This document shows, piece by piece, positions 1,100-35,066 of a stretch of DNA of 64,000 nt. The stretch covers positions 186,001 to 250,000 of the forward strand of contig NZ_PVTS01000005.1 in assembly GCF_003003035.1 (NCBI RefSeq), written 5' to 3'. Below the pieces are notes generated by a model that did no database searches, was not told the origin of the DNA, and worked only from the letters and a program-made list of their open reading frames with translations. The stretch is from Marinilabilia salmonicolor (GTDB lineage: Bacteria > Bacteroidota > Bacteroidia > Bacteroidales > Marinilabiliaceae). The translations under genes and the position numbers were made by a program. Within the stretch, counting starts at the first letter, position 1; the number at the start of each line of letters is the position of its first letter.

Positions 1100-1120
1100 C
1101 GGCATCTACTGCCTATTTAA

Positions 1121-12355: not shown

Positions 12356-12442
12356 TTTTCAAATATAAAACAAATTTTCAATGTTCAATAATCAATTATC
12401 AATGAGCAATGAAATGTTGTTGATGTGGAGTTGCTCCGCAAC

Positions 12443-13577: not shown

Positions 13578-13613
13578 GATGGTGGTTTGGTGCTAAGATA
13601 GGGAAAAATACGG

Positions 13614-14875: not shown

Positions 14876-17800
14876 ATGAAGAAGTTTTACATAGTATTGA
14901 TAGGGCTGTTGATAGGGTCGAGTGTTGGATTTGAGGCGCTTGGACAGATTGATTTGCCATATGCCAAGGCTGATGATGGGGGCTGGATTCAACGCGCTTA
15001 CGATAAGAAAAATGCTTCCAAGCTTTTGTGGAGTCTCTCAGGGGATGGTTTGTCGATTGGTGTCGGCAATGGAGATGGACAATCAGGCGAACGGGTCTCG
15101 GAAGATTGGGCCATTTCTCCTGCACTTCAATTAAAGGATGTTAGTAATTTTCTGGAGTATTCTGATGTCAGAGGTGCTCGAAGTGGATCTGCTTTTGCCG
15201 TTATGATTGCTCAGGGTGATGGAGTTACAGTTCCTGATGTTTCCGATTTTGTAACTGTTGAACAGTGGACTTCCTTGCAAACTATCGAAACACCTCAACG
15301 GGTGGATTTGACTCCGTGGAGTGGACAAATTGTCCATGTCGCATTTTTACGAACCAATGAGCTTGGAGGTAGTTGGACAATTAATAACATTGAGGTAATT
15401 GGTTCTGACTTGGCTGAAGTGGAAAACTTTAAAGTTTCAGAAATTACCAATGGTTCAATTTCACTTTCATGGACTGAGCCCGAAAATAATTTAGAGTACC
15501 TGATTGTAGGTGCTGCCGGAGAAATTGATTTCGTCCCTCAAACCGGTATCAGTTATGCAGTAACTGATCCTGCCGGGAGTAATACAGGCATCGTTTTGAT
15601 GAGTGGAACCGGTATTTCTTTTACTGAGTCGGGACTGGATGAGTTCCAGACTCGCTACTATAAGATTTGGAGTTACGATCCCATCACTCATGAATATGCC
15701 CTGGCTGGACAAACGGCTAATGGTACTACGATTGGAGCATCTACTGTTTTTTATGAGGATTTTGAAGGGACAAATTTAATAACAGATATTACACAGGGAA
15801 CACCGGATCAGGCCACATGGACGAGTACAAAATATAATTGGACAATAGAGTCATTGAATATTGACAACGGAGATTTTTGGTTGCCCAATGGAACTGAAAC
15901 TTCTTATCGGGGTAGTCAATCAGCACATATTGTTCAAAAAGGTGCAACGCCTGCTATACCCGTTTATGCCGAAAATACAGGAGATTCTTTTGAGGAGTCT
16001 ATTCTGGTAAATATTTCTGCGGCTGACCTTGATAAAAATAAATACAAAAGTGCAGAACTGAGCTTTTTCTGGAAAGCCGGAGGAAAAGCCGGATACGATT
16101 ATGGTGATGTCTATATTAATGGTACACGAATGACAGCTGGAGGGTTGTCGGGGCAAACCAAATGGAAAGAGGAAGTCATTGATATCACTTCTGAGCTCAG
16201 CCATGATATTACTCTTGAGTTTTATTGGAAAAACGATCCATCCTACACCGGGGTTCACGAACCTTCATTCTGTGTGGATGAGGTAATGATCACAGGTAAG
16301 TCGGTAGAGCGACCTGCATCCTTTTCTGCCACAGTAATAAATGTGAGTCAGATTGATTTGTCATGGGAAAAAAATTCTGAAAGCCAGGATGTCCTTATCG
16401 CTTATTCTCCCTCCGGAACATTAGGTTCGCCAGATGAAAATGCAGTTTATGCCGAAGGAGATATCCTACCTGGCGGAGGAGAAGTAATATACAAAGGTGC
16501 AGCAACAACCTTTAGCCATGATATAGAAGGCGAAAGCAGGGCCAATTATAAAATCTGGTCAGTTTCTACAGCGAATACTTACAGTACTGCGTTATCAGCT
16601 TCCACAGTATTGCCGGGCAGTTTACCATTTTTTGATGGTTTTGAAGAAGGTTTTGACTGGAATACGGAGCCTTTTAGAAATAACGATTGGTACGCCGGAC
16701 AAGCAAAGGCCAAAGATGGAAATTATTCTGCTTATGTTTCCAATAACGGAGGTTTTACCACTGATTGGTCTGTAAATAGTGGTAGTAATGCTCCAACAAT
16801 ATTAGAACTTCCTGTAAATCTCGCAGGTTTTACAGATATATCGGTTAGTTTTGATTATTTGATAGGAGGACGTATGAATTCTGCTCCAGATAATTACGAT
16901 ATCAATAATGCAAAAGTATTTCTTGAGAATGGTGGAGTGTCAGAGGAATTGACTTTTTCTGGATTTGTGGATCAATCTACATGGAATAGTGCATCAGGGG
17001 ATTTTAGTACTTCAACACTATTTGGTGCTTCGTCATTATTAAGATTTAACTTGTATGATGATTCAAACTTCTCAACGTTAAGTTTTGTTGTTGACAACGT
17101 CAGTATAACCGGAACACTAAGCCCTGTCGCTGATGTTTTAGTAGAAAATAATGGAGGACTGAAAAATAATATTTCCTGGACTAATGCAGCTGAAAATTTG
17201 GAAGTTGTCATAGTTTCCGGAATCAATAATGAACCTCTTGGAGAATTAACAAGTGGAGATACCTATTTTGTGGGAGACATTCTTGATGGAGGGGGAAAAG
17301 TGGTTTATGTCGGAACAGGTGTAAGTCATAATGACGAAAACGTAATGCCCGGGCAGACCTATGAGTATAAGGTCTTCCAGAAAAATGGACTGACTTATTC
17401 TATGGGTGTTGTTGGTAATACTACTGTTACTGTCCCGGATAATGTTAGTTTCTTTGAGGACTTTGAAGGAGATTTGACAGGTTGGAATAAGGGTTCTGCT
17501 GGGGCTAATGTTTGGTTTGTAGGTAAACCTGTTAATGATAATGGCAATACTTCTAATGTTGCTTTTATTTCGGATAATGGAGGTGCAAATGCTCAATTTT
17601 CTCAGGTTATTGTTGGGAAGAACGATCCTCTTCCGACTTTGACGTTGAGTAAAAATATTATCGGCCCTGCGTTTTCAAATGGTACTTTTTTGCAATTTGA
17701 CTATTTGTTTTATAAAGGTAGTAGTACAGAAAGTAGTATCACTGTAAATGTTATAGATAACAATTCGGCTTCAGAATGGAATTATTCTTCACTTGCAAGT

Positions 17801-20767
17801 ACCAACTCATCATGGACCACGACTATGACACCTGAAGCTATTTCACCTACTGCCGTTGATGGAAATATTGATGTTACCTTAGAATTTGTTGCCACAATAG
17901 AGGGTGTGAATAATAACCCAGCTACCATATCTCCCGGTTTCTTAATCGATAATGTGTCCATTACAGGCTCCTACGACAATACCTCAACTGTTTCAAATGG
18001 AGCCGGTGGAGTTGCTTCACTAAGTTCACTAAAAGAAACCGAGGCTGAAGCTGTTGAGGTATTTACTTTTGATATAAAAGATGCTAGTTCAGGAGATGCA
18101 AAACCAACAGACATTCATCAGATGACCATTACCCCGGGCACTGAGAATTTGCTGACCAACTGGCGTGAAGTAATAGGAGGAGCAGCTTTGTATGATGCTT
18201 CTGATGCACTAATTGCCTATGGTTCAATTCAGACACAAGGCATTTTCTTCGATCAGGAAAATATGATTAGTGTGGCAGACGATGGAACCGAAAACTTTAA
18301 ATTGAAAATATGGCTTCGGGAATCTCTGGATACATCTGTGGATAACGGGGTGCTGGATTTTCAGTTATTCGGAAGTGATATAGTCGCTTACAATGGTTCT
18401 TCATTTGATGCCTCAAGTACCAATAAGGCAGAGAGCAATACCAGTACAGTAACAATTGATGCAACAGAACTTCGATGGAGTCAGCATCCATCGGTCAATG
18501 CAGTTGAAGGTACTGTTTTATCTACACAACCGGTTGTGCTCGCTACCGATGCCAATGGGAATATTGACAATGATTATATTTCTGATGTTTCGTTGACGTC
18601 AACTCCTGCAGGGGTTAGCGGTACTTTTCCTGGGACATCAGTTGCCGGAGTGACTACATTCACTGATATTGTTTTTGGAACTGTAGGAACTTATGTTTTA
18701 GAGGCTACTTCGGGTGTTTTGGCATCGGTAACCTCACAGGATATAACTGTTTCTGAGGATAACGGAGTTTCTTTGGGAGGTTTGCAACACATTGGCGCCG
18801 TGAAACTGGCTGGTATTGAGAATTATACATACGAAAGATCAGCCGGAGGTTATGGTTTGTTTCTGGATCAAGAGGCCCGTATGACCAAAGGAATGTCCTA
18901 TGAAATGTATGTGTACGTTTCTGGTGGAGCTAACCTAAAAGTTTATGTTGACTTTGACAAGGATGGTTCTTTTGAAGTTTCAGAGATGATAAAGGATTTT
19001 AGTTGGAAACAAGATCAGGTTGCTCAGGGATTTGTTTCTATCCCCACTGATGTTGCAACAGGAACCTACCATTTAAGGGTTGAGTTTTTGAATGGTACAG
19101 ATGGCGAAATTGAAGATTACACAGTAATTGCAACAGACAATCAATGGACCGGCTACACCCCCGAGTGGGACGTGACAGCCAACTGGAGCAGTGAACAGGT
19201 TCCGACCGATAAAGTATATATTCCAGGAAATCCTGTGGATGGTAATTTCTTCCCGGTGATAAAAGAGGACAAAACCATTAACGAACTTATTCTTGAGAGT
19301 GGTTCAAATATCACTGTAAAACCGGGTGTTGCCTTTACCATCGCCAACGATGTAACCAACAACGGCCAGTTTGTATTAGAATCAACAGCCGACAATCTCT
19401 CGTCATTAATGTTGCCTTCAAATGCTACCAAGGTTGGGGATGCTAATGTGAAGCTGGAGGTTCCGAAGAATCATTACTGGTACTTAAGTACACCGCTAGC
19501 AAATGCCAGAGCCGAATGGTTTGGAAATTTGAATAGTGATCCAAACGCAGAGGACTGGGTGTTTGTACTGCGAGAAAGCGGAGGAAAGAATAAATGGTTG
19601 AGAGTTGTTGGAGATATTCCATTGAATCCACTTGAAGGAGTAAGTACGTGGTATTACAATCAGGATAAACAATTGGATTATTCTGGTACTTTAAACCAGG
19701 GAGATATATCTTTTACTTATGGGCAACCGGATTATTACCTGCTTGGTAACCCCTATGCAACTTCAATTGACTGGGATGTTTTAGAGGCTGAGAACCGTGA
19801 TGGTTTGGACTTCGCACAAACAATGTGGTTTAGGGTTAGTCGAACAGGATTTGATGGAGAGACTTACAGAACTTGGCAGACCTATAATACATTTTTTTCA
19901 GCAATAGATCCAGAGGAACTCGGCTATTCAATAGAGAACGAAAGTTATATTGCCCCTTATCAAACTGTTTGGATTAAGGCGGATGTAAGCAATGCTACTT
20001 TTACTGTATCGGAGAATTCCAAAGTAAAGCATACCGGAGCATTACCGTTAAAGAGTGCAGGATCCTCTAATAATTCAGAAATGGATGTATTAAGAATTAA
20101 GGCGGTAAACGATAAAACAGTAGATGGAGCGGTAATTTTCTTTAACAATGCTGGAGATTCAGGTAGAGATAGTTTTGATAGTGATAAACGGTTTAATGAT
20201 TCAAAAGCGATTCCGGAGTTATATACCATGCTAAATAGCACTCCTCTTGCAATTAACAGTTTGCCACAGCTCTCAGGAACCGCTTATTCCATTCCATTAA
20301 GTGTTCGTAACCGGATAGAAGGAGAAGTTAAGTTGTCTGTTGATGTAAGGGAATTTACAGATGCTTATGATGTGGTGCTTGAAGATAAAGAGTTAAGCTC
20401 ATGGATTAATATGAGAGATGTGAGCGAGTATGCTTATAATCCTCGTATCATGGGGGATGATCATGACCGGTTTGTATTGCATTTATCCAAAGTTCAAAAA
20501 GTTCCTACTGATATTGAAGAGTCCGTTGACGATGCATCAAATATTCAAATAATTGGGAAAAAGGACTATGCTGCGGTAAGGATCAGTCCTGAATTGCTTC
20601 AATCTTCAGAAGCAGTCATTCATGTATTGGATGTTAACGGCCGGCAGATTACCAATAAGAATACCCGAGATACAGAAACGGAAATAGCGTTGCCTTCAGA
20701 GAATGGCGTTTATGTGGTTCGTGTAAATGCCGGAGGTACTGTTAAGACCCAAAAGGTTGTTAGGTAA
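14876..20767 (+). CDS. Giant T9SS-secreted surface protein A (jelly-roll/FN3-like repeats, GEVED, shared C-terminal module)
   Basis: 1963 residues from ATG 14876, chosen because the bases before it (ACAGGGTTAAA...AGTGAT) match those before the second surface protein. Residues 1-22 are a signal peptide (KKFYIVLIGLLIGSSVG). Residues about 30-1060 alternate choice-of-anchor-J-like jelly rolls (FYEDFEG, FFDGFEEG, FFEDFEGD segments) with FN3-like strands (ISLSWTEPEN, IDLSWEKNS). Residues about 1300-1420 are a GEVED-type domain ending GEIEDYTV. Residues 1422-1963 are a module shared with the two following proteins, whose last 75 residues are a T9SS type A sorting domain (VLDVNGRQ, NGVYVVRVNAGGTVKTQKVV). 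Export across the outer membrane by T9SS and display or release at the surface are inferred. It probably binds glycans or peptides; no catalytic motif is seen. Confidence 0.9.
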   Translation: MKKFYIVLIGLLIGSSVGFEALGQIDLPYAKADDGGWIQRAYDKKNASKLLWSLSGDGLSIGVGNGDGQSGERVSEDWAISPALQLKDVSNFLEYSDVRGARSGSAFAVMIAQGDGVTVPDVSDFVTVEQWTSLQTIETPQRVDLTPWSGQIVHVAFLRTNELGGSWTINNIEVIGSDLAEVENFKVSEITNGSISLSWTEPENNLEYLIVGAAGEIDFVPQTGISYAVTDPAGSNTGIVLMSGTGISFTESGLDEFQTRYYKIWSYDPITHEYALAGQTANGTTIGASTVFYEDFEGTNLITDITQGTPDQATWTSTKYNWTIESLNIDNGDFWLPNGTETSYRGSQSAHIVQKGATPAIPVYAENTGDSFEESILVNISAADLDKNKYKSAELSFFWKAGGKAGYDYGDVYINGTRMTAGGLSGQTKWKEEVIDITSELSHDITLEFYWKNDPSYTGVHEPSFCVDEVMITGKSVERPASFSATVINVSQIDLSWEKNSESQDVLIAYSPSGTLGSPDENAVYAEGDILPGGGEVIYKGAATTFSHDIEGESRANYKIWSVSTANTYSTALSASTVLPGSLPFFDGFEEGFDWNTEPFRNNDWYAGQAKAKDGNYSAYVSNNGGFTTDWSVNSGSNAPTILELPVNLAGFTDISVSFDYLIGGRMNSAPDNYDINNAKVFLENGGVSEELTFSGFVDQSTWNSASGDFSTSTLFGASSLLRFNLYDDSNFSTLSFVVDNVSITGTLSPVADVLVENNGGLKNNISWTNAAENLEVVIVSGINNEPLGELTSGDTYFVGDILDGGGKVVYVGTGVSHNDENVMPGQTYEYKVFQKNGLTYSMGVVGNTTVTVPDNVSFFEDFEGDLTGWNKGSAGANVWFVGKPVNDNGNTSNVAFISDNGGANAQFSQVIVGKNDPLPTLTLSKNIIGPAFSNGTFLQFDYLFYKGSSTESSITVNVIDNNSASEWNYSSLASTNSSWTTTMTPEAISPTAVDGNIDVTLEFVATIEGVNNNPATISPGFLIDNVSITGSYDNTSTVSNGAGGVASLSSLKETEAEAVEVFTFDIKDASSGDAKPTDIHQMTITPGTENLLTNWREVIGGAALYDASDALIAYGSIQTQGIFFDQENMISVADDGTENFKLKIWLRESLDTSVDNGVLDFQLFGSDIVAYNGSSFDASSTNKAESNTSTVTIDATELRWSQHPSVNAVEGTVLSTQPVVLATDANGNIDNDYISDVSLTSTPAGVSGTFPGTSVAGVTTFTDIVFGTVGTYVLEATSGVLASVTSQDITVSEDNGVSLGGLQHIGAVKLAGIENYTYERSAGGYGLFLDQEARMTKGMSYEMYVYVSGGANLKVYVDFDKDGSFEVSEMIKDFSWKQDQVAQGFVSIPTDVATGTYHLRVEFLNGTDGEIEDYTVIATDNQWTGYTPEWDVTANWSSEQVPTDKVYIPGNPVDGNFFPVIKEDKTINELILESGSNITVKPGVAFTIANDVTNNGQFVLESTADNLSSLMLPSNATKVGDANVKLEVPKNHYWYLSTPLANARAEWFGNLNSDPNAEDWVFVLRESGGKNKWLRVVGDIPLNPLEGVSTWYYNQDKQLDYSGTLNQGDISFTYGQPDYYLLGNPYATSIDWDVLEAENRDGLDFAQTMWFRVSRTGFDGETYRTWQTYNTFFSAIDPEELGYSIENESYIAPYQTVWIKADVSNATFTVSENSKVKHTGALPLKSAGSSNNSEMDVLRIKAVNDKTVDGAVIFFNNAGDSGRDSFDSDKRFNDSKAIPELYTMLNSTPLAINSLPQLSGTAYSIPLSVRNRIEGEVKLSVDVREFTDAYDVVLEDKELSSWINMRDVSEYAYNPRIMGDDHDRFVLHLSKVQKVPTDIEESVDDASNIQIIGKKDYAAVRISPELLQSSEAVIHVLDVNGRQITNKNTRDTETEIALPSENGVYVVRVNAGGTVKTQKVVR

Positions 20768-20820
20768 TCACGACATTTTGATGTTGTTAAATTGATCAAT
20801 ACAATAAAAGCTTCCGGAAA

Positions 20821-20847
20821 AGTTCCCCTTGGGGGGATTTAGGGGGC
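20821..20847 (+). repeat. CCCCTTGGGGGGATTTAGGGGGC repeat unit
   Basis: First of three units placed immediately before the terminators of the three surface protein genes. It reads as the reverse complement of the units at 13614 and 35678. Confidence 0.8.
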
Positions 20848-20879
20848 CACCTCATCACAATTAACCCTGTGAAGTTAAG

Positions 20880-20917
20880 AAGCCCCGCTCCAAAACGTTG
20901 GAAGCGGGGCTTTTTTA
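20880..20917 (+). terminator. Rho-independent terminator of surface protein A
   Basis: Stem AAGCCCCGCT / AGCGGGGCTT extended by a CC-GG pair, with an 8-base loop, followed by TTTTTT. The preceding CCCTGTGAAGTTAAG is nearly identical ahead of the other two surface protein terminators. Confidence 0.9.
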
Positions 20918-21464
20918 GGATTTGTGATTTCTTTGTCAAAAACAAAAGGGTGAAACCTAAACTCTAATTTTACGGCTTCTTCTGCTTATTTATCTTATTA
21001 TAAGAATGCGTACCTAACAGATTATTTAAGTAAGGATTTACTTGAAAAATTTCTAAGTATAATTGCTTTGCAATTATTTTTTAGTCCACAAATTTAAAAC
21101 CTGTTAAAGCTTTTATTATATGGTGTTGCCGTTTTTAGTTGCACCAAAGGTGTGACAAAATTCGTTTAATTCGTAAAATTCGTGGACAAAAGAAAAAGAA
21201 ATGGCTTAAGCCATTTTTATTTTCATGAATTATGTGATAAACTTTTTTAGGTATACACTATTATGATGATCCACTTTTCTTAATCCCACAACTTTAAGTT
21301 ATTAAAAGTTCTCTTTACTTTTATCCAAAAAAGATTTCCATTCATCAAGAGTGTCACAGCAGTTCGTCAAAGCTTCTCAACAAACACTAATGATCCCTGT
21401 ATAACTACACAGAAACCTCAATAACGAGGTGAAATTTTTGAACAGGGTTAAATTTAGTGATATT
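20918..21464. other. Intergenic region between surface proteins A and B
   Basis: No gene. It holds two units of the hairpin plus GTCCAC box repeat: 21061-21097 (AATTGC-TTT-GCAATT stem) and the inverted 21156-21216, whose stem is the 18-base palindrome AAATGGCTTAAGCCATTT. The 40 bases before the next gene contain ACAGGGTTAAA and AGTGAT, as in front of surface protein A. Confidence 0.6.
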
Positions 21465-23792
21465 ATGAAACGTTTTTACTACACATTAATTGGGTTAATT
21501 TTTGTTGGAGCTTTGAACATCAATGCCAAACCAGGTGGCGATTACGAAACTGAGCGTAATGCTGATGGTGATTTTGAGCAAACTGATGTATGGAAAAAGG
21601 GTAACGCACCCTCTGCTGATGGTATTGTGGATAAAAGAATGACCATCAATGGCAGTATAACAAGAAACGGAGAACTCAATCCGGTAGATGTTGTCGTCAA
21701 CGGAACTTTTATTGTTACAGAAAACTATTACAATAATAATTGGAGCGGACTGACAGTTACCAAAGACGGGTATGTTGAGATTTTTGGTAATCTGGAAGGT
21801 TCTGCCGGAATTCAGGTTGATAAAGGGGGTATTTTAATTGTACATGGTAATCTTTCATCTACCGGAAGTAACCTGAAATCAAATGGAGATATCATCGTGA
21901 AAGGTGACTTTTCAACCTCTTCTAATACCCATGTACAGAATAAAGGTAACCTTATTGTTGGTGGAGACTTCTCGCATTCAGGAGGAGGGCTCAAAGCCAA
22001 ACCTGATGATTTATACATTATCAATCCCGATGCCGAAATTTCTTATCCTGAAGGAAGTATTTTAGAAAATGACAATTCTTACGGGGATATGGATGATCTC
22101 TTGAATAGCGGTGAAGATGGCGATCTTAAAGATCTTATTGAAAGTATTGGAATGTTAAATCCGGTAATCTCATGGATTGGTTCAGAAAATGCTGATTGGT
22201 CTAATCCGGATAACTGGAAAGGAAATAAACTGCCAAAGTTTGATTCTTCAGTGAAAATTGAAATATCAGGAAATGTTCCTCAAATTAATAGTGATATTAC
22301 ACTTTCAAATCTTACGATTGCAGAGGGTGCTAAGTTGGTAATAAATCCCGGTGCTTCGCTTGAGGTTACAGAAGATGTATCTAATAACGGTCAGTTTGTT
22401 TTAGAGTCAGAAGCAGATCAACTGGCTTCTTTAATGCTCCCTGAAAATGCAACCAAAGTAGGAGAGGCCAATGTGAAACTTAAAGTTCCTGAGAATAACT
22501 ATTGGTATCTGAGTACGCCATTGGCTAACGCAAGGGCAGACTGGTTTGGCAGTCTTAATAATGACACAAAAGCGAAAGACTGGGTTTTTGTTCTCAGAGA
22601 AAGTAATGGTAAGAATAAGTGGTTAAGGGTTGTTGGAGATATTGCTTTAAATCCCCTTGAGGGTGTGAGTACCTGGTACTATGATGAAGAAAAGCAGCTA
22701 GATTATACAGGAGAATTGAATGCAGGAGATATCTCTGCGACTTATGGTCAGCCTGACTATTATTTGCTAGGAAACCCTTATGCAACTTCTATCGATTGGG
22801 ATGTGCTGGAAGAAGAGAATCGTGACGGAACGGAATTCTCGCAAACTATGTGGTTTCGGGTTACCCGCAAGGGCTTTGATGGAAAAACATACAGAACCTG
22901 GCAAACTTACAATACTTTCTTTTCTGCCATTGATCCTGAAGTGTTGGGGTATTCAAAAGAAAATGAAAGTTTTATTGCTCCATATCAGACAGTCTGGATT
23001 AAAGCAGAAAAAAGTAATGCAACCTTTACTGTTTCCGAAAATTCAAAAGTGAAAGCCAAAGGATCTTTACCTCTTAAGAATGCCAGTTCGCAGAATCATT
23101 CCGAAATGAATGTTTTAAGAATAAAGGCTGCCAATGATAAAATAGATGACGGAACGGTGATATTCTTTAATAATAATGGGGCAAGTGGCTATGATAGTTT
23201 TGATGGAGATAAGAGGTTCAATGACTCAAAGGCTTTTCCTGAATTATATACAAGAGTAGATGATAAGCCACTTGCCATTAATAGTCTTCCATCGCTTTCA
23301 GCTTCCAATTATTCGATCCCTTTCAGCGTTCGCAACCGAACTGAAGGAGAAGTAAAACTTTCGATTGACCTTGAGGAGTTCACTAATAATTATGAGGTCG
23401 TTCTGGAAGATAGAGAAACAGGCTCCTATACAAATATGGGAGATGTTGCTGTGTATTCTTATACTCCCCGTCAGATGGGAGATGATCATGACCGCTTTGT
23501 GTTGCACCTTTCAAAAGTGCAGTCGGTAGCAACATCCATCGAGGAGGAAACCCAAACTGATGAGCAGATATCTATTTTGGGACAAAAGGAAGATGTATTG
23601 GTACGCATTAGTTCTGAGTTGCTTCGCATTGAACCAGCAACCATTGAAGTGCTGGACATGAGTGGACGTTTGCTGAATACTGTTAATACCATAAGTTCAG
23701 AAACTGAAGTTTCACTGCCTGTTGTCCATGGTGTTTATGTGGTTCGTGTTATTGCCGGCGGTACCATTAAAACTGAAAAGGTTGCCAGATAG
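21465..23792 (+). CDS. T9SS-secreted surface protein B (short beta-helix plus shared C-terminal module)
   Basis: 775 residues from ATG 21465; an in-frame ATG at 21429 is also open, but its extra residues do not resemble a signal peptide. Residues 1-23 are a signal peptide (MKRFYYTLIGLIFVGALNINA). Residues about 60-190 are short strand-turn repeats (DGYVEIFGNLEGS, KGGILIVHGNLSS, NGDIIVKGDFSTS, KGNLIVGGDFSHS), which form a right-handed beta-helix-like stack. Residues 235-775 are the shared module: SENADWSNPDNWKG start, YWYLSTPLANARADWFG, WVFVLRESNGKNKWLRVVGD, YYLLGNPYATSIDWDVLEE, RTWQTYNTFFSAIDP, and a T9SS sorting domain ending GVYVVRVIAGGTIKTEKVA. This is the smallest of the three and may approximate the ancestral form. 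Function is unknown beyond surface display. Confidence 0.9.
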   Translation: MKRFYYTLIGLIFVGALNINAKPGGDYETERNADGDFEQTDVWKKGNAPSADGIVDKRMTINGSITRNGELNPVDVVVNGTFIVTENYYNNNWSGLTVTKDGYVEIFGNLEGSAGIQVDKGGILIVHGNLSSTGSNLKSNGDIIVKGDFSTSSNTHVQNKGNLIVGGDFSHSGGGLKAKPDDLYIINPDAEISYPEGSILENDNSYGDMDDLLNSGEDGDLKDLIESIGMLNPVISWIGSENADWSNPDNWKGNKLPKFDSSVKIEISGNVPQINSDITLSNLTIAEGAKLVINPGASLEVTEDVSNNGQFVLESEADQLASLMLPENATKVGEANVKLKVPENNYWYLSTPLANARADWFGSLNNDTKAKDWVFVLRESNGKNKWLRVVGDIALNPLEGVSTWYYDEEKQLDYTGELNAGDISATYGQPDYYLLGNPYATSIDWDVLEEENRDGTEFSQTMWFRVTRKGFDGKTYRTWQTYNTFFSAIDPEVLGYSKENESFIAPYQTVWIKAEKSNATFTVSENSKVKAKGSLPLKNASSQNHSEMNVLRIKAANDKIDDGTVIFFNNNGASGYDSFDGDKRFNDSKAFPELYTRVDDKPLAINSLPSLSASNYSIPFSVRNRTEGEVKLSIDLEEFTNNYEVVLEDRETGSYTNMGDVAVYSYTPRQMGDDHDRFVLHLSKVQSVATSIEEETQTDEQISILGQKEDVLVRISSELLRIEPATIEVLDMSGRLLNTVNTISSETEVSLPVVHGVYVVRVIAGGTIKTEKVAR

Positions 23793-23865
23793 ATATTATT
23801 CCTGTTCTTAAGGCATGGGCCAAATGTGTAAAGAGAACTTGTAAATTAACCATGTGTATTCCCAG

Positions 23866-23894
23866 AAGTCCCCCTTGGGGGGGATTTAGGGGGC
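23866..23894 (+). repeat. AGTCCCCCTTGGGGGGGATTTAGGGGGC repeat unit
   Basis: Second of the three units preceding the surface protein terminators; it carries one extra G in the loop-side run compared with the others. Confidence 0.8.
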
Positions 23895-23929
23895 TCCAAT
23901 CAGTATCACTTCATTACCCTGTGAAGATA

Positions 23930-23965
23930 AAGCCCTGTTCCATATTTTTGGAACGGGGCTTTTTA
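23930..23965 (+). terminator. Rho-independent terminator of surface protein B
   Basis: Stem AAGCCCTGTTCC / GGAACGGGGCTT around an ATATTTTT loop, followed by TTTT. Preceded by CCCTGTGAAGATAAAG, matching the flank of the other two. Confidence 0.9.
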
Positions 23966-24247
23966 GTTAGGAAGGCTGGTTTCGATAAAAATTCTTTTTT
24001 TTTTGATCTACCACCCCTCAACACCCTGCAAAGATCCGTCATTGCGAACGTAGTGAAGCAATCTCAATTTATTAACCGGACACCAATGAAAATCTATGAT
24101 TTAATGTCATTAGTCAATGTTTTGAACAGGTTAGTGTAATAGTTCCAACTTGGTTGATTTATGTTGGGTATAAAAGTCCAGATGTGCCCTAATTTTGCCT
24201 GCTAAAATAAGTAAAAACAGAATTCTGATTATTTAGATAATAAAGTT
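23966..24247. other. Intergenic region before surface protein C
   Basis: No gene. GTCATTGCGAACGTAGTGAA followed by GCAATCT (24036-24063) is a copy of a short repeat widespread in bacterial genomes (usually written as ATTGCGAGCGAAGCGAAGCAA). The last 60 bases are AT-rich and probably hold the promoter. Confidence 0.5.
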
Positions 24248-27200: not shown

Positions 27201-30200
27201 CAGTTGGTGGGGATTTTACGGTTGCAGCAGATGGTTCGTACAATTCCGGTTCCAATACCACCTTATTTAATGGCAAAGATGACCAGACGTTTACAATTGA
27301 TGGAATAGTAGATAATGGTTCGGGTGGATTGAATGTTTTTTCAATTAACAAATCCAGCGGTATTATTGACTTGGACGGAGCTGTCACCAGCTTGAATGTT
27401 GCCGGAGATATGCGATTACAAAATGGTATTTTTGACGATGGTGGCAAAGTTGTATATGTTCAGGGTAATCTTGCCTGTGGAGGAATTCATGCGGGTGAAG
27501 GACACATTGAACTCAATGGAGCAAACGTACAAACAATTGAAGGAGGAGGAGTGCTGGGCAATCTGCATCTAAACAACAATAATGGTTCTCTTGCACCAAT
27601 TGTGTTGAATTCCGACATCCGAGTGAATGGTACCATTACGTTTTTGCGAGATAAACTTTTTAATATCGGTTCGAATAACCTAGAGCTGGGCCCTGATGCG
27701 ACTTTTGTCAATTCAGGTGACAATCGGTTTGTGCAAATAACCGGTCAATCAGGTGATAAGGGGATAACTAAAAACTGCGCAGCTCCCGGAGAATTTGTTT
27801 TTCCCGTTGGAGTAGATTATTATACTCCGGCTACAATTACCCTTAATGGTGTTCCTGCCTCGTATGGAAGCATTTCAGTCGTGCCTGTTGATGCTGAACA
27901 CCCTAATTCTACAGAGGAAGACAGGTCATTGGCCTATCACTGGCGGGTTAAATCCAATGGCCTTAATTTGGGAGGAGCAACTGTAACTCATGAATATTTA
28001 TACCACGACTCCTATGTGGCAAGTCAGGGTAGCGTTAATGAAGATGAATATGTTCCTGCTCGTTATTTATCCGATTCATTTAGTTGGTCAACAGGAGATG
28101 CAATTGATGTGGATGAAGATAATAATATCATTGGGGGAAGCTTTTTGACTAATGTGGATTTCATAGAGGGTGACTATACGGCGGGGGATAACACACCCAC
28201 CAATCCTTTTGGCGAATCAGAAATATTTTACAGTCGACAAAATGGTAAGTGGAACAACAATCACACCTGGTCATTAAGTGGGCATGCCAAAGATGACAGA
28301 CCGTCTCAGGCTCCCGGTGCAGGTGATATAGTGGTGATAGGAAACGGGCATGAAGTGACATTGGAGTCAAATGCGACTTCACCTGATAGGGATGTTCAGA
28401 ATTGTGCCAGTTTACAGATTGAAGAGGGATCTGTCCTGGATGTTGGATACAATCCCGGTAGTACATTCAGCATTGTTCGTTCGCATCCAAATGGCAATGG
28501 ACTCCTAAGAGTAAGGCCATCGGAAAATTCAGGTAGTACCTTTGAATTTCCAAATGGAGATTTCTCTGAGTTTAATACCGAAATGGGAACTACAGAGTTA
28601 TATACGACCAACCCAGAGGCAGGAACCACTTATTGGTTGGCCAATGATGTAACCAGCTATGGTAATCTCATCATCTCTCCGGTTGGGGGTTCTAATATTA
28701 TTTTCGGGAACACCGATCTTACCATTTATGGAGATTTAACCACTAAGGGGCAGAACTCCGAGTCATGGTTTTTGCCTACCTGGGATTCGAATTATCCTAC
28801 AGCTCCCACGCAAAGAAGAGCTAAGACGATTACGATTAAAGGCGATTTTAATATTGTGGGGGGAGCATTGATTTATTATGGGAACAGGGATTTAGCTCAG
28901 GATATTGTAGTAGAAGGGAATTTAGTTGTTAGCTACGGTGCAGGAATTCAGGTTTATAGTCGAGCCAACAACCAAAGCATCAGTATTGGAGGAAGTTTAA
29001 TTAATAATGCTTCATTTGGAAATGGAGTTGATGAATACGCTGGTTGCGATTTCACCGATATTCCGGTTACTTTCTTTGGTGATAATGATGCAAAAATTAC
29101 CAATACATCAGGTACACCCGATACACGTTTTGATGAAGTGACCATTAATAAAGGCAATTCCCAGGAAACCAAACTCACCATCGATATTACCGGTAATCTG
29201 GAAACACCTGACGACAACTGGCTTACCTTACAAAACGGAACCCTGGAGTTTAAAAGAGACAATACCAATCAGGATTTCACTATTACCACCCAAAGTTCGT
29301 TTACCATTCCTTCAACGGCCGGATTGCTCGTTGATTATGATAACTCCAACGGAGCTCGTGTGCTTATGGGGAATGACAATACCAACAACAACGACTTATT
29401 CCTGAATGGTAAACTCACTATTGTAAATGGGGATGTTTTCGTAGGTGCACCATACAGTCCCGATAATAATAACGACATTGAGTATGCCGGTGGTGGCGCT
29501 TCTGCCATCGAGGTTCAGGGCGGTCAACTGGTGGTGAACGGCCAGGTTCGTCGCAATCCTGCTACTACAAGTGGGATCCTCAGCTATTCACAGAGTGGTG
29601 GTGAGGTAGTTATAAATGGCCGCAATGCCAACGCTACCAATGCCAAACTGGAAGTCCTCAATCAGGGCAGTGAATTTAATATGTCGGGAGGTACGCTAAC
29701 CATTGTTCGTGGTGGAGGCGGAAACAGCTATGGAGACCTTTACCTGCGTCCCGAATCTTCCAATGTAACAGACGGAGATATTGTTTTTGATAATGAAGAG
29801 AGTGGTAATGATGAACAGTACCAATTAGATGCCAATGTGCCTTTGAATAATCTTACTATAACAGGTCATTCCGGCTATAATGCTACGGTTAAATTGCTGG
29901 TGAGTCCGCTAACACTGAACGGTAATCTTAATATTGACAATGAAAACAGCATTTTTGATGCCAATAATGAAAATAATATCAACCTGACCGTTAATGGCGA
30001 CTTTATCAATAATGGTACCTATAATCATTATGAAAACCTTACTACTTTCAATGGTGGAGAACAAACCATTGAAGGATCAACGGCAACTGATTTCTATGAC
30101 CTGAAAATTAATCCTGTTACATCAGTTTCTCTTATTCGTGATGTTACAGTTCGGGATAATCTGGAGCTGGCTTCAGGACAGTTATTGGTTGATGACTTTA

Positions 30201-33200
30201 CTGTAACGGTAAATGGTGATCTTATCAACAATGCTACTTATATTAATGGTGCAGTATCCGGTGGTGTTGTGCTTTCAGGAGGAGAAGAGGAGCATCAGAT
30301 TTCCGGAACAGGGGCTTATGGTCGTTTGGAACTCAACGATGGGCATGGTGCCCGATTGCTTAACGATGTAACTCTGAAGAATGACTTCGTTCTGACCAAC
30401 GGTGTTTTGAACATTAATCAGTATCTCTTTACCCTTAATTCGGATGCATATATTTTGGGAGATGATTTTGGTTCCGGTAAAATGATTTCTTCAGACGGCG
30501 TTTTTAGCAACCAGGGAATGAAAAAGTATTTCTCTGCAAACAGTGCCGGAACTGAGTTTACTTATCCGATGGGTATTGGTGATAAATATACACCGGTGCA
30601 AGTGAAATTTACCGGCAATAACCAGGCCGGGGCTATCAGAGTCAATGCTATTAATGCAAAACATCCATCATCTAAAGATCCATATCGTGTTCTTGATTGT
30701 TATTGGGAAGTTGAGCATTCAGGACTGGATGGTTTTCAGGGCGATGTAGATTTTTATTATAGCGATGATGATGTATTGCAGGTCGTAAGCGATGAAGCAA
30801 ATTATATTGCAGCAAGGCTTAATCCCGTTGATTACAACTGGTTTAAGTATTCAGCAGATGAGGTTGTTGAAGATGAGAATATCATTCACATTAACATTGG
30901 AAGCGCTACCAATATTAGTGGTGAATATATGGCCGGCGTTGATGATGATATTCCTAACGATGTGCCGGTTTACAGATCGATCTCAAATGGTAGTTGGTCC
31001 AATCCGGCTATCTGGCAGCCGGTAGGCGATGCACCGGCTTGTTCGGATGAAGGTCCACAGGGTGCTGTCGTTATTATAGACAGCGAAGTAACAATCGATG
31101 AAAATTATCGATTCTCCTATAAAACGACCATTAATGATAAACTCAAAGTAGATCAAATAACTTATGGGCATAATCTCGGAAAAATCGACGGAGAAGGTAC
31201 TTTATATGTAGAAGACGCATTAATGCCTGCCGGTAAATACGATGATTTCCTTGGTTGTGGCAACAATTCTACGCTTGAATTTGGTGGAAATGGTGACTAT
31301 AATATTGTAGCTGATTTGTTTACTTCCATATCAAATTTAAAAGTTTCAGGAAGTGGAAGTAGATTTTTGCCTGCTAAGACATTAAGCATTTGTAATAGTC
31401 TGGTGATTGATGGAGCTACCCTTGATAATAGTGTGAACAATGAAACTCTAATTATTGAGGGAACCATGGAGCGATATAACAGTGGTCGCTTTATCGCCGG
31501 GTCAGGTGCTAATGCAACCGTTAGTTTTGCCGGTGATGCAGAGCAAATGCTAGGGGGGACTAACGGAGGTTTTAGCGGAGTCAATGCTTTCAATAATCTG
31601 GAGATTGATAATGCCAGTGGTCTGTCCATTCAAGGTGCAACGGAAGTTACTGGTACGTTGATGTTGACGGACGGGATCATAAATACCTCGGAGACTAAAT
31701 CTCTTACCATTACGAATACCTCTTACAATAGTGTAACGCCTGCTGGTGGTCATTCCGGTTCTTTCGTGAACGGCCCGCTGGTTAAGCGAATTCTACAGGG
31801 AGGATCATTTACTTTCCCGGTAGGAAAAGATGGGGTACTTGGTAATAAGCTCACAGTTGCAGCAACTCAGGGGGGAACCATCGACTGGTCCGTGGAGTAT
31901 TTTACCCCTAACAGTACTTATGCGCAGTATAGCGATCCGGTGACTTATGTGAATTCCAAAGAATATTGGAGAGTCAGTGCACCGGATGGAAGTAAATCCC
32001 GAATTGGCATCAACTGGGATGGTTCAAGTGATGTTACTCCCCTGATGACCATGAACGGACTTATTGACTTGTTGGTTGCCAACTATGATGATAACGTGGG
32101 TGAATGGATTGATATTGAATCCTCAGCAAGTGGTGATAATAATTACGGTACTGTTGTTACCGATGACCGGATCACCATTTCTGCCGAAGGACAAAAGGAC
32201 TTTACCACAGCTACGCAAAATGCAGTGAAAGCAAAAGCAAAACTGACACCTGCCGGTGTATTGTGTGGAACCGAAGCTGGTATCCCTGTTACTTTTACAT
32301 CATCGACACCCATTCCATTTAATTACGAGTTGGTTTATACCATTGATGGTGTTGAGCAAACACCTGTAACAGTTACTTCAGTGCCTTTCACGCTTCCCAC
32401 GCCTCAGGCAGGTGAGTACCAGTTGACAGGTTTTACCTATAATAATGGAACCGGAACAGGTGTGGTTGATGAAGAGATCGTCACGGTTTATGCTTCACCA
32501 ACAACAGCTGATGCTGGTGCTAATCAGTCAAATTGCGGTGGTTCTTCAGTTGAATTAGAAGGAAATACTGCCGATGTAGGCGTTGGTTTATGGACTATTG
32601 TTTCAGGTGACGGAGGAAGTTTTGATGCACCTACTTCACCAACCAGTAATTTTTCAGGAACAAACGGTTCTGCTTATACGCTTCGATGGTCAATTAGCAA
32701 TGGTGAGTGTATTTCAGCTGATGAGGTTACCATTACTTTCCCGGTTCTGGCAGATCAACCCGGTGAGTTTTCCGAGTACGACACTGAAGTTTGTCAGGGA
32801 GCGAACAATGTGGTTTTCACCGTTCCGTTGGATGTAACCATATCGAATTATAACTGGAGTTATTCCGGTGAGGATGTAACCATAAATGGCACCGGAAATT
32901 CTGTTTCGCTTTCCTTTGGTATTTCAGCTACAAGTGGCACTCTTTCCGTTACAGCTGAAAATAATTGCGGAGAGAGTGATCCGAGAGAAATTGCAATTAC
33001 AGTAAATGAAGCCATATCCGGCGTCACATTGGAGTCAAATATTGAAGGTTCCCTGTGTGTGAACAATAGTCCCGTATTTACAGCCATTCCTGCCAAAACA
33101 ATAACCGGTTTGAGCTATGAATTCTTTGTTAACGGAGTCTCCGGGCAAAATGGAGCTTCTGAAACATTTGAACCCGTTAATCTTATGGATGCAGACGTTG

Positions 33201-34912
33201 TGAATGTGGTTGCCACTTCAGCAGATGGTTGCAGCACGACTTCGAATGATATAACAGTTTCTGTTGTTGCCACTGATGGTTTGTGGATGGGAACAGAGGA
33301 TGCCGACTGGAACAATGTTGCCAACTGGTGCGCGAATGTTGTTCCTTCGACAGGTGATATTACTATTTCCGGTAATAGTGTTCATGCGCCGGAGGTTACC
33401 GCCGATATGGATCTTACCTGGCTTACCATTGAGGAGAATGCCAACCTTGTTGTGAAGCCCGGGGTGATGCTTGAAGTTACAGGAGATGTGGTAAATGATG
33501 GAAAGATAACCCTTGAAAGTGACGCAGATGCATTGGCTGCTTTGTATTTGCCGGAATCACCAACTAAAGCAGGAATCGGGAATGTAGTTATGAATATGCC
33601 AAAGAACTATTACTGGTATATCGGTTCTCCTTTGCGTTCTGAAGTTGATGGAAAAGCAAAAGCTTCATGGTTTGGGGATTTGAATAATGACCCGAATTCG
33701 ATTGATTGGGTATTTGTTCTTCGCTACAAGAATGGACGAAACCAGTGGTTGAGAGTAGTTGGAGATATTGACTTAACCGAGATGGAAGGTGTTAGTACCT
33801 GGTATTATCAGAATAAAGTATTGGATTATGAAGGAGAGATTAATGTTGGTGAGTTTTCAAGAACTTTTGCAGAAATTGACCATCATTTGTTTGCCAATCC
33901 ATATCCAACGGCTATAGACTGGGAAGATCCTGCTGGTTGGGGAAGAAGTGATTTTGGTAATACCATGTGGAACCGGGTGACTTTTGGTGGAGAGCGTACC
34001 TGGCAAACTTACAACAACGGTGGTGATGATGATCCGGGAGTGTATGCTTTGCCTCCCGAAGCGTTTGGTCAAACTGCAGAAAATGTAAGTTATATTCCGC
34101 CTTATCAGACTGTTTGGATTAAGGCTGAAAAAGAAAATTCTACATTGACGGTTTCACCGGAAACAAGGGTTAAGGATAATAGTGTTGGATTGAAGAGTGC
34201 AGGGACTGATGAATCGCAGAAAGTTAATATCATACGTCTGCAAATTAGTAATTCAAAAGCCCTGGATGGAACAGTCATCTATTTTTCGGGTAATTTCATG
34301 GATGAAAAGGGGAGAGAGGATTCTGAAAAGCGGTTTAATGATTCCAAAAATATTCCTGAAATCTATACCCGCATTGGAGGAAATGCTTATAGTATTAACG
34401 GGAAATCCTTGTTGACTGAGGCTGCATATTCTTTGCCTGTAAGCGTTAGAACCCGTATTATTGAGGAGACACAGATTTCGGTTAATTTGTCCCGCTTTCA
34501 AGCCAATTATGATGTATTTCTGGAGGATAAGGAAACAGGAGCGTGGGTGAATATGAAGGAAAATCCGGAATATGTGTTTGTTCCTGTTCATCAGGGGCAT
34601 GAGCATAACAGGTTTGTGCTCCACCTGGAGAAAACTCAGGAAATACCAACCAATCTTAACAATTCTAATGAGTATGTGCCTGGAGATATTTCGATTATTG
34701 GAAGGACTGAATATGCACTTGTGAGAATTAGTTCGGACTTGCTGCAGCCTTCAGGTGCTCTTATTGAAGTGTTGGATGTGAATGGTCGTTTGATTAGTCG
34801 CATGCGAACAATTGGATCCAGCACCGAAGTTGATTTGCCTGATAATAGCGGTGTTTATGTGGTTCGTGTTAATGCCGGAGGAACCATGAAAACAGGAAAA
34901 GTGGTAAGATAA
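24248..34912 (+). CDS. Giant T9SS-secreted surface protein C (Gly-rich head, three long beta-helix superrepeats, Ig-like stalk, shared module)
   Basis: 3554 residues. A signal peptide ends at about residue 41 (FFLRIIALMLLLLAFTFGAK, AQ). Residues about 60-255 are a Gly-rich domain (runs such as GGGGGNRTSRGEAGGGGGG). Residues about 260-375 are an Ig-like domain. Three superrepeats of about 930 residues begin at about 377 (YRSGDWNEPTIW), 1326 (SRQNGKWNNNHTW) and 2238 (SISNGSWSNPAIW); each has a Trp-rich cap, a long parallel beta-helix with NGDL/GDF-type rungs, and a FPVG/YPMG closing domain. Residues 2660-3010 are Ig/PKD-like domains. Residues 3011-3554 are the shared C-terminal module with a T9SS sorting domain. 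The frame is intact for 10.7 kb. An adhesin or matrix protein is the most likely role, by architecture only. Confidence 0.9.
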   Translation: MIQLYPAFFVGLKKKEVNNFFLRIIALMLLLLAFTFGAKAQDITETYTSNGTFVVPAGVTEITVEAWGAGGGGGNRTSRGEAGGGGGGAYAKSDLTVEPEVSYDIVVGEGGNSGTNGGNSSFAVNMVVADGGKSVPVNNENGGAGGSVANSIGDVVYSGGNGGKAGDTGGWRPTYYSGGGGGAAGSTGNGNSASGQTGGAEKEEHGGAGADGVTNNSDGGDGLQYGGGGSGAKRGWFGNNDGGLGASGFIRITYTPPYRSEFSSANIGDPVWGIGETRTVSVTVKNTGQATWTDSNPDINIGVKWNEEPDYMVRVDANDLAPGAERTYNLEITAPATMGANNLTFDVVNEGNFWFGDTDHSTAIVSEEISIVPDVNKYYSYRSGDWNEPTIWTHDPSGTTQVGNSVPESYDEVYILSGRKVSLSNDIDVDNLRVAINEGGVLDLSGNQFASGLFSLKGQGTLKIASAYFPSVSDINTFVEVNGGTTEYYNASNFQLPQSQSVYNNLLINTSGARATQRNNIILNGDLHVKSGIYRINNNSATNRLSLEINGDVIVEENGFISVGEGNTVTNDTNGGTAPFIDYYNNNSHIVVVKGDFTNNGTVRFTNQDAPDFNSFPNNGIATVYFKGASDNVLYANGQTDFYNLVLDKGSDQTYKLTVQSTAYSNFRLFGRNDLGGEGGGANPNLRKALWLRTGTMVLDGLAVIPTLTEASTGGSPNGDFYIPANAALELKGPEVIVLTTADSYQEINAAYGTSLGSDDEAGVRASGGTQSFSVYGKLSINDGYFSTRESGGIITWDVASGQLEIGGGYLDAKQIRAAGGNNGLASYQQTGGVVALRGRFQRQPNQYNSPVDLRAEGLATIDTDRETGGLDGSMGTFNINDASNVFMMAGGKVQIFDACGNNGYAVDIFAGANNINVTGGAFEILPMDGNNDLIVRTNAPLGNFVVNRSGGGSDVVLGNNFPLTVLKNLSLTNGEFDANDMDVTVGGDFTVAADGSYNSGSNTTLFNGKDDQTFTIDGIVDNGSGGLNVFSINKSSGIIDLDGAVTSLNVAGDMRLQNGIFDDGGKVVYVQGNLACGGIHAGEGHIELNGANVQTIEGGGVLGNLHLNNNNGSLAPIVLNSDIRVNGTITFLRDKLFNIGSNNLELGPDATFVNSGDNRFVQITGQSGDKGITKNCAAPGEFVFPVGVDYYTPATITLNGVPASYGSISVVPVDAEHPNSTEEDRSLAYHWRVKSNGLNLGGATVTHEYLYHDSYVASQGSVNEDEYVPARYLSDSFSWSTGDAIDVDEDNNIIGGSFLTNVDFIEGDYTAGDNTPTNPFGESEIFYSRQNGKWNNNHTWSLSGHAKDDRPSQAPGAGDIVVIGNGHEVTLESNATSPDRDVQNCASLQIEEGSVLDVGYNPGSTFSIVRSHPNGNGLLRVRPSENSGSTFEFPNGDFSEFNTEMGTTELYTTNPEAGTTYWLANDVTSYGNLIISPVGGSNIIFGNTDLTIYGDLTTKGQNSESWFLPTWDSNYPTAPTQRRAKTITIKGDFNIVGGALIYYGNRDLAQDIVVEGNLVVSYGAGIQVYSRANNQSISIGGSLINNASFGNGVDEYAGCDFTDIPVTFFGDNDAKITNTSGTPDTRFDEVTINKGNSQETKLTIDITGNLETPDDNWLTLQNGTLEFKRDNTNQDFTITTQSSFTIPSTAGLLVDYDNSNGARVLMGNDNTNNNDLFLNGKLTIVNGDVFVGAPYSPDNNNDIEYAGGGASAIEVQGGQLVVNGQVRRNPATTSGILSYSQSGGEVVINGRNANATNAKLEVLNQGSEFNMSGGTLTIVRGGGGNSYGDLYLRPESSNVTDGDIVFDNEESGNDEQYQLDANVPLNNLTITGHSGYNATVKLLVSPLTLNGNLNIDNENSIFDANNENNINLTVNGDFINNGTYNHYENLTTFNGGEQTIEGSTATDFYDLKINPVTSVSLIRDVTVRDNLELASGQLLVDDFTVTVNGDLINNATYINGAVSGGVVLSGGEEEHQISGTGAYGRLELNDGHGARLLNDVTLKNDFVLTNGVLNINQYLFTLNSDAYILGDDFGSGKMISSDGVFSNQGMKKYFSANSAGTEFTYPMGIGDKYTPVQVKFTGNNQAGAIRVNAINAKHPSSKDPYRVLDCYWEVEHSGLDGFQGDVDFYYSDDDVLQVVSDEANYIAARLNPVDYNWFKYSADEVVEDENIIHINIGSATNISGEYMAGVDDDIPNDVPVYRSISNGSWSNPAIWQPVGDAPACSDEGPQGAVVIIDSEVTIDENYRFSYKTTINDKLKVDQITYGHNLGKIDGEGTLYVEDALMPAGKYDDFLGCGNNSTLEFGGNGDYNIVADLFTSISNLKVSGSGSRFLPAKTLSICNSLVIDGATLDNSVNNETLIIEGTMERYNSGRFIAGSGANATVSFAGDAEQMLGGTNGGFSGVNAFNNLEIDNASGLSIQGATEVTGTLMLTDGIINTSETKSLTITNTSYNSVTPAGGHSGSFVNGPLVKRILQGGSFTFPVGKDGVLGNKLTVAATQGGTIDWSVEYFTPNSTYAQYSDPVTYVNSKEYWRVSAPDGSKSRIGINWDGSSDVTPLMTMNGLIDLLVANYDDNVGEWIDIESSASGDNNYGTVVTDDRITISAEGQKDFTTATQNAVKAKAKLTPAGVLCGTEAGIPVTFTSSTPIPFNYELVYTIDGVEQTPVTVTSVPFTLPTPQAGEYQLTGFTYNNGTGTGVVDEEIVTVYASPTTADAGANQSNCGGSSVELEGNTADVGVGLWTIVSGDGGSFDAPTSPTSNFSGTNGSAYTLRWSISNGECISADEVTITFPVLADQPGEFSEYDTEVCQGANNVVFTVPLDVTISNYNWSYSGEDVTINGTGNSVSLSFGISATSGTLSVTAENNCGESDPREIAITVNEAISGVTLESNIEGSLCVNNSPVFTAIPAKTITGLSYEFFVNGVSGQNGASETFEPVNLMDADVVNVVATSADGCSTTSNDITVSVVATDGLWMGTEDADWNNVANWCANVVPSTGDITISGNSVHAPEVTADMDLTWLTIEENANLVVKPGVMLEVTGDVVNDGKITLESDADALAALYLPESPTKAGIGNVVMNMPKNYYWYIGSPLRSEVDGKAKASWFGDLNNDPNSIDWVFVLRYKNGRNQWLRVVGDIDLTEMEGVSTWYYQNKVLDYEGEINVGEFSRTFAEIDHHLFANPYPTAIDWEDPAGWGRSDFGNTMWNRVTFGGERTWQTYNNGGDDDPGVYALPPEAFGQTAENVSYIPPYQTVWIKAEKENSTLTVSPETRVKDNSVGLKSAGTDESQKVNIIRLQISNSKALDGTVIYFSGNFMDEKGREDSEKRFNDSKNIPEIYTRIGGNAYSINGKSLLTEAAYSLPVSVRTRIIEETQISVNLSRFQANYDVFLEDKETGAWVNMKENPEYVFVPVHQGHEHNRFVLHLEKTQEIPTNLNNSNEYVPGDISIIGRTEYALVRISSDLLQPSGALIEVLDVNGRLISRMRTIGSSTEVDLPDNSGVYVVRVNAGGTMKTGKVVR

Positions 34913-34966
34913 ACAGGACATCTTACGCTATTAACTTTAATCAATATTAGAAAGAAAGGTTCTCAC

Positions 34967-34995
34967 AAAGTCCCCCTTGGGGGGATTTAGGGGGC
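34967..34995 (+). repeat. AAAGTCCCCCTTGGGGGG-type repeat unit
   Basis: Third unit placed between a surface protein stop codon and its terminator. Confidence 0.8.
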
Positions 34996-35026
34996 TGTAA
35001 TATCACAATTAACCCTGTGAAGTTAA

Positions 35027-35066
35027 GAAGCCCTGTTCTGAAATGTCGGAACGGGGCTTCTTTTTT
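35027..35066 (+). terminator. Rho-independent terminator of surface protein C
   Basis: Stem GAAGCCCTGTTC / GAACGGGGCTTC with loop TGAAATGTCG, followed by TTTTTT. Preceded by CCCTGTGAAGTTAA as after protein A. Confidence 0.9.

Follow-up and report, generated by a model that had tools for sequence, protein, structure and literature searches.

RemA, a gliding adhesin of Flavobacterium johnsoniae, and its homologue RemZ are cargo proteins of the type IX secretion system (T9SS). They share a C-terminal region and a type A sorting domain with the three proteins described here (A, B and C), but their remaining parts, the heads, differ from those of A, B and C. PMC12618676 describes in RemA a lectin domain, as well as a sorting domain that gives both surface anchoring and release. 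In RemZ, the sorting domain alone is well resolved in the translocon. No mention of homogenisation of the RemA or RemZ tails was found in the portions of the literature searched.

C-terminal adhesin modules are likewise shared and rearranged among the gingipains and HagA, T9SS surface proteins of Porphyromonas gingivalis, and repeats broke the assemblies of that species too, according to PMC5266723. The shared units there are cleaved-adhesin and DUF2436 domains in few genes of one species, whereas here the unit is a different, 450-residue tail with its 3' flank, which appears homogenised per genome, occurs in several genera and is joined to many heads that are wholly different. Mfa5, the tip of the P. 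gingivalis minor fimbrium, is a fimbrial protein in which only the first half of the module finds a match. In the S-layer proteins of the sapA locus of Campylobacter fetus, the conserved shared end binds LPS. Exchange of homologues within that one locus likewise changes the surface, as stated in PMC3887049; however, the proteins, the secretion route and the phylum are different, and the present comparison took one genome per species. The literature searched for the head and tail pattern yielded domain exchange in P. gingivalis and nothing that names this pattern. A paper on F. psychrophilum was rejected as a precedent, because the term gene conversion stands in its reference list only. For Marinilabilia, no statement of gliding was found in the excerpts of the literature searched.

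Three adjacent genes share a C-terminal module

The window, which is the whole stretch of 64,000 nucleotides analysed, is part of contig C5 of a 4.8 Mb genome and contains three large genes in a row:

14876-20767, plus strand: gene A, signal-peptide-like start, GEVED head and shared tail (ORF, Pfam)
21465-23792, plus strand: gene B, signal-peptide-like start, short beta-solenoid head and shared tail (ORF, AlphaFold2 model)
24248-34912, plus strand: gene C, with a glycine-rich start, then a long head, a domain of PKD-like type and the shared tail (ORF, Pfam)
20591-20767, plus strand: T9SS type A sorting domain of A, end of the tail (TIGR04183, 2.4e-08)
23625-23792, plus strand: T9SS type A sorting domain of B (TIGR04183, 2.3e-07)
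34742-34912, plus strand: T9SS type A sorting domain of C (TIGR04183, 2e-05)

The open reading frames span 14714-20767 (A), 21429-23792 (B) and 24248-34912 (C), and the earlier note had placed the starts of A and B at 14876 and 21465. For A, Met55 of the reading frame (14876), which precedes a hydrophobic stretch, is the likelier start than 14714. A hydrophobic N-terminal start was seen by eye in the three proteins, with a helix at residues 10-25 in the model of B. Upstream of gene A, on the minus strand, lies a peptidase S24-like gene (13125-13577), which we take to be of the LexA/UmuD type.

The NCBIfam model of the T9SS type A sorting domain (TIGR04183) matched A, B and C with 33.8, 30.7 and 24.4 bits, above its 23-bit cut-off, and the same genome encodes the T9SS translocon protein SprA (2784 bits, above cut-off) and GldJ (461.6 bits against a cut-off of 458.2). 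Pfam identified GEVED in A (2.4e-08; fn3 reached merely 0.065), and Gly_rich_2 (3.8e-14) and PKD_6 (4.7e-11) in C; in the module, it gave weak sorting-domain matches below cut-off and a weak match to Amnionless in B (0.0024). Pfam gave no lectin family for any of the three proteins up to an E-value of 1, in contrast to the lectin domain that PMC12618676 reports for RemA.

The C-terminal ~540 residues of the three proteins align along their entire length, as the earlier note had described, with identities of 369/550 (67%) between A and B, 268/536 (50%) between A and C, and 270/535 (50%) between B and C, and the motifs listed in that note are present in all three modules. It had also held the heads to be unrelated. 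No match among the heads of A, B and C was found at an E-value of 1e-10, although weak matches appear at lower stringency: between A and B at the signal peptides, between B and C with E-values of 0.002-0.09, and between A and C as an extension of the alignment ~200-250 residues upstream of the module (40% identity across 823 columns overall). The module comprises a Trp-rich start and a RemA-type tail:

19124-19411, plus strand: Trp-rich start of the A module (identity to the head relative G003_C135 is 88% for the block ending at -500 and drops to 22-34% within the tail)
22140-22436, plus strand: Trp-rich beta-solenoid start of the B module (alignment; model strands up to 336)
33266-33556, plus strand: Trp-rich start of the C module (alignment)
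19412-20764, plus strand: RemA-type tail of A, with a putative recombination edge near 19460 (97.5% DNA identity to M. salmonicolor JCM 21150)
22437-23789, plus strand: RemA-type tail of B (alignment, between-genome comparison; tail-only model with pLDDT 84.1)
33557-34909, plus strand: RemA-type tail of C (alignment, between-genome comparison)

Homology and predicted structure of the module

The claim that the first 450 residues of the module correspond to no described domain holds as regards a curated name, but RemA and RemZ have C-terminal regions homologous to it. In scans of the whole proteins and of 38 tails with Pfam and NCBIfam, no entry covers the tail, and the matches were sorting-domain entries and stray ones. 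Three Pfam and four NCBIfam entries were matched by the 38 tails, the sorting domain foremost; NCBIfam entries NF038113 and NF052644 matched 11 and five members, respectively. A profile of 41 relatives matched RemA (8gl6 chain D) at residues 890-1434 (E 3e-48, 6-534 of 537 positions) and RemZ (8gl8 chain D) at residues 577-1112 (E 4e-39, 18-534 of 537 positions), and the tail alone still matched both (6e-32 and 2e-30, respectively). In Mfa5 (6to1), residues 645-966 match the first half of the module (2e-13), and the second half has no match. Since the module aligns end to end with RemA and RemZ, it is, by sequence homology, the C-terminal region of the RemA family, uncurated in Pfam and NCBIfam.

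Structure prediction, named in the earlier note as a check on the module, yielded models but no fold match in the PDB beyond the sorting domain. The AlphaFold2 model of B (pLDDT 82.9, 41 sequences) shows a beta-solenoid head and then a second short solenoid at the Trp-rich start, with strands up to 336; after it, as read from the strands, a central beta domain is predicted, followed by a beta-sandwich and finally the sorting domain. The tail-only AlphaFold2 model obtained a pLDDT of 84.1. Foldseek searches of the PDB with whole B and with the tail alone gave top-ranked matches with query TM-scores of at most 0.15, and the sorting domain was the sole usable match (8qb1, target TM-score 0.68); an S-layer structure, 7ptp, was not accepted as a fold match to B or the tail. 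For the remainder of the module, no solved structure is known to us.

Distribution of the module

Six module matches were found in the window genome: A, B, C, a half-module gene on contig C1 and two distant genes on contig C17. The module is present in 31 of 41 genomes (that of the window and 40 relatives) and, at an E-value of 1e-10, in 107 of 149 Bacteroidia genomes, the window's included. The closest named relative found was M. salmonicolor JCM 21150, with 88% identity in its copy of the B module; a contig search gave this one long relative plus three short matches of 32-33%. Genome G004 was taken as M. salmonicolor JCM 21150, and the genus and family names of the other G genomes were derived from this assignment. 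The gene on C1 (L040:1713-2552) encodes 280 residues with the second half of the module only; it has orthologues in G001, G002, G003, G004, G016 and G021, and its evolution is ordinary.

Heads and tails have different histories in related genomes

Our sample consisted of 32 chosen stretches from 18 of the 31 matching genomes. It gave 43 full-module genes from 15 genomes and 50 genes with a head from 18 genomes, leaving aside modules truncated at the end of a contig. Head types recur across genomes: types A, B, C, D, E and F were found in several genera, the B head has orthologues in several relatives, and the C-type head of G011 shares 76% identity with its G009 counterpart and 74% with the one in G024. 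In L069 (contig 241 of G003), around 1823-2800, an E-type gene is split in its tail into two overlapping frames, by a frameshift or a sequencing error.

The tree of the 43 modules groups by genome and not by head, also when repeated on the last 440 residues. On this tree the genome label changes 15 times (minimum 12, shuffled mean 30.6) and the head label 19 times (minimum 6, shuffled 21.5). Nine of the 13 genome groups form one clade each. In the last-440 tree, bootstrap values are 100 for G001 (four genes), G009 (four), G023 (seven), G024 (three), G005, G011 and G021, and 87 for G012; the two out-of-cluster genes on C17, without orthologues in this tree, also form one clade. The remaining four groups mix as close species, the window cluster with G004 and G002 with G003. 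Cluster tails range between 35 and 95% identity across all clusters. Among 41 in-cluster pairs, 29 show no head match at 1e-10 and 12 have related heads (27-77%), including the G011 pair and the G001 pair that shares an exact tract (see below).

For each gene, the closest tail was sought using only in-cluster paralogues without a head match on one side, and on the other head relatives with at least 60% of the head covered, of which the most similar tail was used. Of the 30 genes that allowed this comparison, 23 have a tail most similar to that of an in-cluster paralogue whose head is unrelated; paralogues are thus more alike than orthologues, which is the pattern of concerted evolution. An orthologue tail is closer in the other seven: four between the window and M. 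salmonicolor, two of G003 and a near tie in G012 (37 v 36). Window B and C do not follow the pattern against M. salmonicolor. As a control, all 18 out-of-cluster module genes examined had their best match in an orthologue of another genome. On these alignments, the ~450-residue tail, usually together with 50-260 nt of flank, is shown to evolve in concert in the tandem clusters of the relatives, and the heads of these clusters to follow their type or be replaced, independently of the tails.

An ordinary conserved domain, with tails alike through constraint and not recombination, would be in line with the wide occurrence of the tail in Bacteroidia and with its nearly invariant residues. This is contradicted by the tail being less conserved than the head in nine of ten chosen head-orthologue pairs (in one by a single point), and copies outside the clusters share only 24-46% identity with the cluster in the same genome (a G016 gene has no full cluster module for comparison); we regard constraint as scarcely tenable.

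Of 13 other Bacteroidia stretches, 11 yielded a total of 20 within-stretch module pairs, of which three have partial tails. Where the tails are full length they are 38-63% identical, and the heads have no match in 12 of the 20, in one case because the head is too short to compare. This within-stretch pattern would fit the head and tail picture.

The switch between head and tail

Sliding identity changes ~450 residues before the end in most of nine protein comparisons. Window A and G003_C135 fall from 88% in the block ending at -500 to 22-34% from -400 to -200, and identity between window A and window B rises from 26% and 48% to 78%. No switch is seen in G002/G003 or in window C/G004, where head and tail both correspond. 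At the DNA level, the main homology begins 180-340 nt into the module in nine of 14 paralogue pairs; in the others it starts upstream, with similar heads (three pairs), or is patchy (window A/C and B/C). It stops 50-260 nt past the stop codon in most pairs, and before it in G021 and G024. The recombining unit would not be the whole 540 residues, as had been proposed, but the last ~450, mostly with this stretch past the stop. Since homology switches near -450, the Trp-rich start (the first ~95 residues of the proposed module) goes with the heads, and in the model of B the switch point falls where the second solenoid meets the central domain.

Sharp-edged tracts were found in G001 and at the A locus, with an edge near 19460, and not among A, B and C. 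In G001, two genes with related heads (40% identical) have an exact 1,211-nt run in common within their tails; around it, identity is 40-79% across 1.5 kb upstream and 87-98% from the tract to the stop. In G006, G010 and G016, contigs terminate within or close to modules and have exact runs of 32-148 nt in common, because repeats break short-read assemblies, and these ends, in draft genomes, would suit an assembly artefact in which collapsed repeats cause the likeness of the tails. However, collapse would yield 100% identity and not differences of 24-40% at fourfold sites, the clusters of the window, G001, G009, G011, G023 and G024 each lie on one contig with distinct tails, and B and C are consistent between the window and M. 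salmonicolor. An artefact is therefore very unlikely.

Divergence at fourfold sites

Tails within one genome differ at 5-29% of fourfold sites in G001, 24-40% in G009 and 37% in G011; those of G021 (53%) and G024 (65%) are not young. Between G009 and G011, the C heads differ at 57% and SprA at 69%. In ten chosen head pairs, the heads differ at 53-71% and SprA at 58-75%, near saturation, which limits the case for vertical descent of the heads. At the protein level, heads match the pace of SprA in three C-type pairs only, and the other seven are more diverged. Since heads look about as old as SprA at fourfold sites and in-genome tails are younger in G001, G009 and G011, homogenisation by gene conversion seems to account for a large part of the pattern; in these three genomes the genes seem older than their tails, which would favour conversion over fresh duplication. 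Window A, B and C tails differ mutually at 62-73% of fourfold sites, which is saturated. In the window genome these tails separated long ago and show no recent event; recent conversion is visible in relatives.

Plain duplication would mean that one module-plus-terminator unit was duplicated in tandem in each lineage and joined to new heads, with no later homogenisation. It would explain the shared 3' flank and terminator, the single clade formed by the tails of most genomes, the head exchange at the A locus and the mutual relatedness of several in-cluster heads. It fits poorly with head types that are the same in several genera and look as old as SprA at fourfold sites, and with the apparent excess of gene age over tail age in G001, G009 and G011; furthermore, the exact G001 tract spans part of the tail with sharp edges, as conversion would leave. 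We give it a small chance of being right. From the duplication with new heads put forward in the earlier note, a tail and terminator unit separate from the heads is retained, whereas homogenisation seems to be a major process and head replacement is clear only at A.

Comparison with M. salmonicolor

At the A locus, the heads of the window and M. salmonicolor are unrelated, and the DNA is 97.5% identical over 19460-20916; on the 5' side, a 71% match over 14142-14918 covers the gene start and the upstream region. Fourfold differences between both genomes are 6% for the A tail, 31% for the B tails, 28% for the C tails, 10% for the B heads and 60% for the C heads, with 46% for SprA, and the genes neighbouring the cluster have a DNA identity of 83-88%. 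Since the B heads are alike, the C heads are not and the A tail is near-identical, the cluster looks like a mosaic, recombining between the window species and M. salmonicolor. By this DNA comparison, head replacement is clearly shown at one locus, A.

Head replacement at A would also follow if heads were transferred horizontally into resident tails, the tails being vertical and paralogues not converting. Such transfer agrees with the A, B, C, D, E and F head types common to several genera, and with a cluster that, the C head excepted, is closer than SprA at fourfold sites between the window and M. salmonicolor. Nevertheless, it leaves unexplained the 1,211-nt exact tract between two G001 tails, and the heads do not look recent (53-71% fourfold differences in ten pairs, a comparison limited by saturation). 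Transfer without conversion seems to us rather doubtful.

A dispersed repeat of ~300-400 bp is located at window positions 1119-1481, 12023-12418 and 43989-44294. Numerous partial copies of it occur in M. salmonicolor, several of them lying at the ends of contigs, and it could be a small mobile element.

The 3' flanks

The genes are followed by flanks of the same layout, one part of which is dispersed:

20768-20916, plus strand: 3' flank of A (GC-rich dispersed repeat, CCCTGTGAAG tag, terminator hairpin 20879-20913)
23793-23971, plus strand: 3' flank of B (layout as in the A flank, hairpin 23929-23962)
34913-35064, plus strand: 3' flank of C (layout as in the A flank, hairpin 35025-35062)
13613-13658, 20832, 23879, 34980, 35678 and 38088: GC-rich dispersed repeat GCCCCCTAAATCCCCC

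The flanks align among window A, B, C and three M. salmonicolor copies, and that of the A locus is nearly identical in M. salmonicolor. Each of the three window flanks has a strong terminator, with folding energies of -23.8 to -27.7 kcal/mol and z-scores of -5.1 to -6.6, and the stem of the A terminator is kept despite letter changes on both sides. The CCCCCTTGGGGG...GGGGGC repeat (GGGGGATTTAGGGGGC, GCCCCCTAAATCCCCC) is found as 16 exact 16-mers in the genome, on both strands.

The tag AACCCTGTGAAG..AA was sought with its context in nine genomes, allowing at most one mismatch. All seven zero-mismatch matches lie just past a module gene or fragment, and they occur in all five genomes of the window genus searched. 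Four matches have one mismatch: in G003 one lies ~520 nt downstream of a module gene, in G002 one is next to a half-module gene of the opposite strand, and two are elsewhere. The backward control of the tag gave three matches. The copy in the B flank differs from the pattern by two letters. Tandem-repeat and promoter scans added nothing.

The 3' cassette described in the earlier note is upheld in that the flanks align, the terminators are strong and the tag is module-linked, but its GC-rich repeat is dispersed genome-wide. The genome count of module plus flank suggested there gave the six module matches, but 13 of the 16 copies of the GGGGGATTTAGGGGGC repeat do not follow A, B or C, three of those lying elsewhere in the window.

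Discussion

We consider it probable that these genes carry interchangeable heads on a RemA-type T9SS tail that is homogenised by recombination. A, B and C would be large surface proteins exported by the T9SS, each with a different head on a common tail made up of the predicted central beta domain, the beta-sandwich and the type A sorting domain. The tail would guide export and then either retain the head on the cell surface or release it, as reported for the sorting domain of RemA; by analogy with RemA, whose own reported behaviour is mixed, we infer that heads may be held there. Any head joined to a resident tail would be displayed at once, and the tail would double as a handle on the protein and as a tract of identical DNA through which new heads can enter. 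RecA-type homologous recombination, through gene conversion and head exchange, would be the driver, and varied heads on display would presumably give a benefit.

More tentatively, we entertain the broader idea that the tail is a dual-purpose recombination handle, kept uniform in each cluster by gene conversion, through which whole heads, ~200 to 4,800 residues long, are exchanged both between strains and within them. This would be a head-exchange display system in free-living Bacteroidia, possibly with a lineage tail matched to its own surface partner.

What is new here is how the module evolves: heads correspond between genomes, and the last ~450 residues group by genome. In practice, assemblies of such clusters from short reads can be broken or misleading. 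The exchange edge is predicted at a predicted domain border, and the natural combinations of heads and tails are a resource on the role of the ~350 residues before the T9SS sorting domain. The finding ties the gliding adhesin RemA to a process that would renew surface proteins, with a uniform tail per genome and differing heads.
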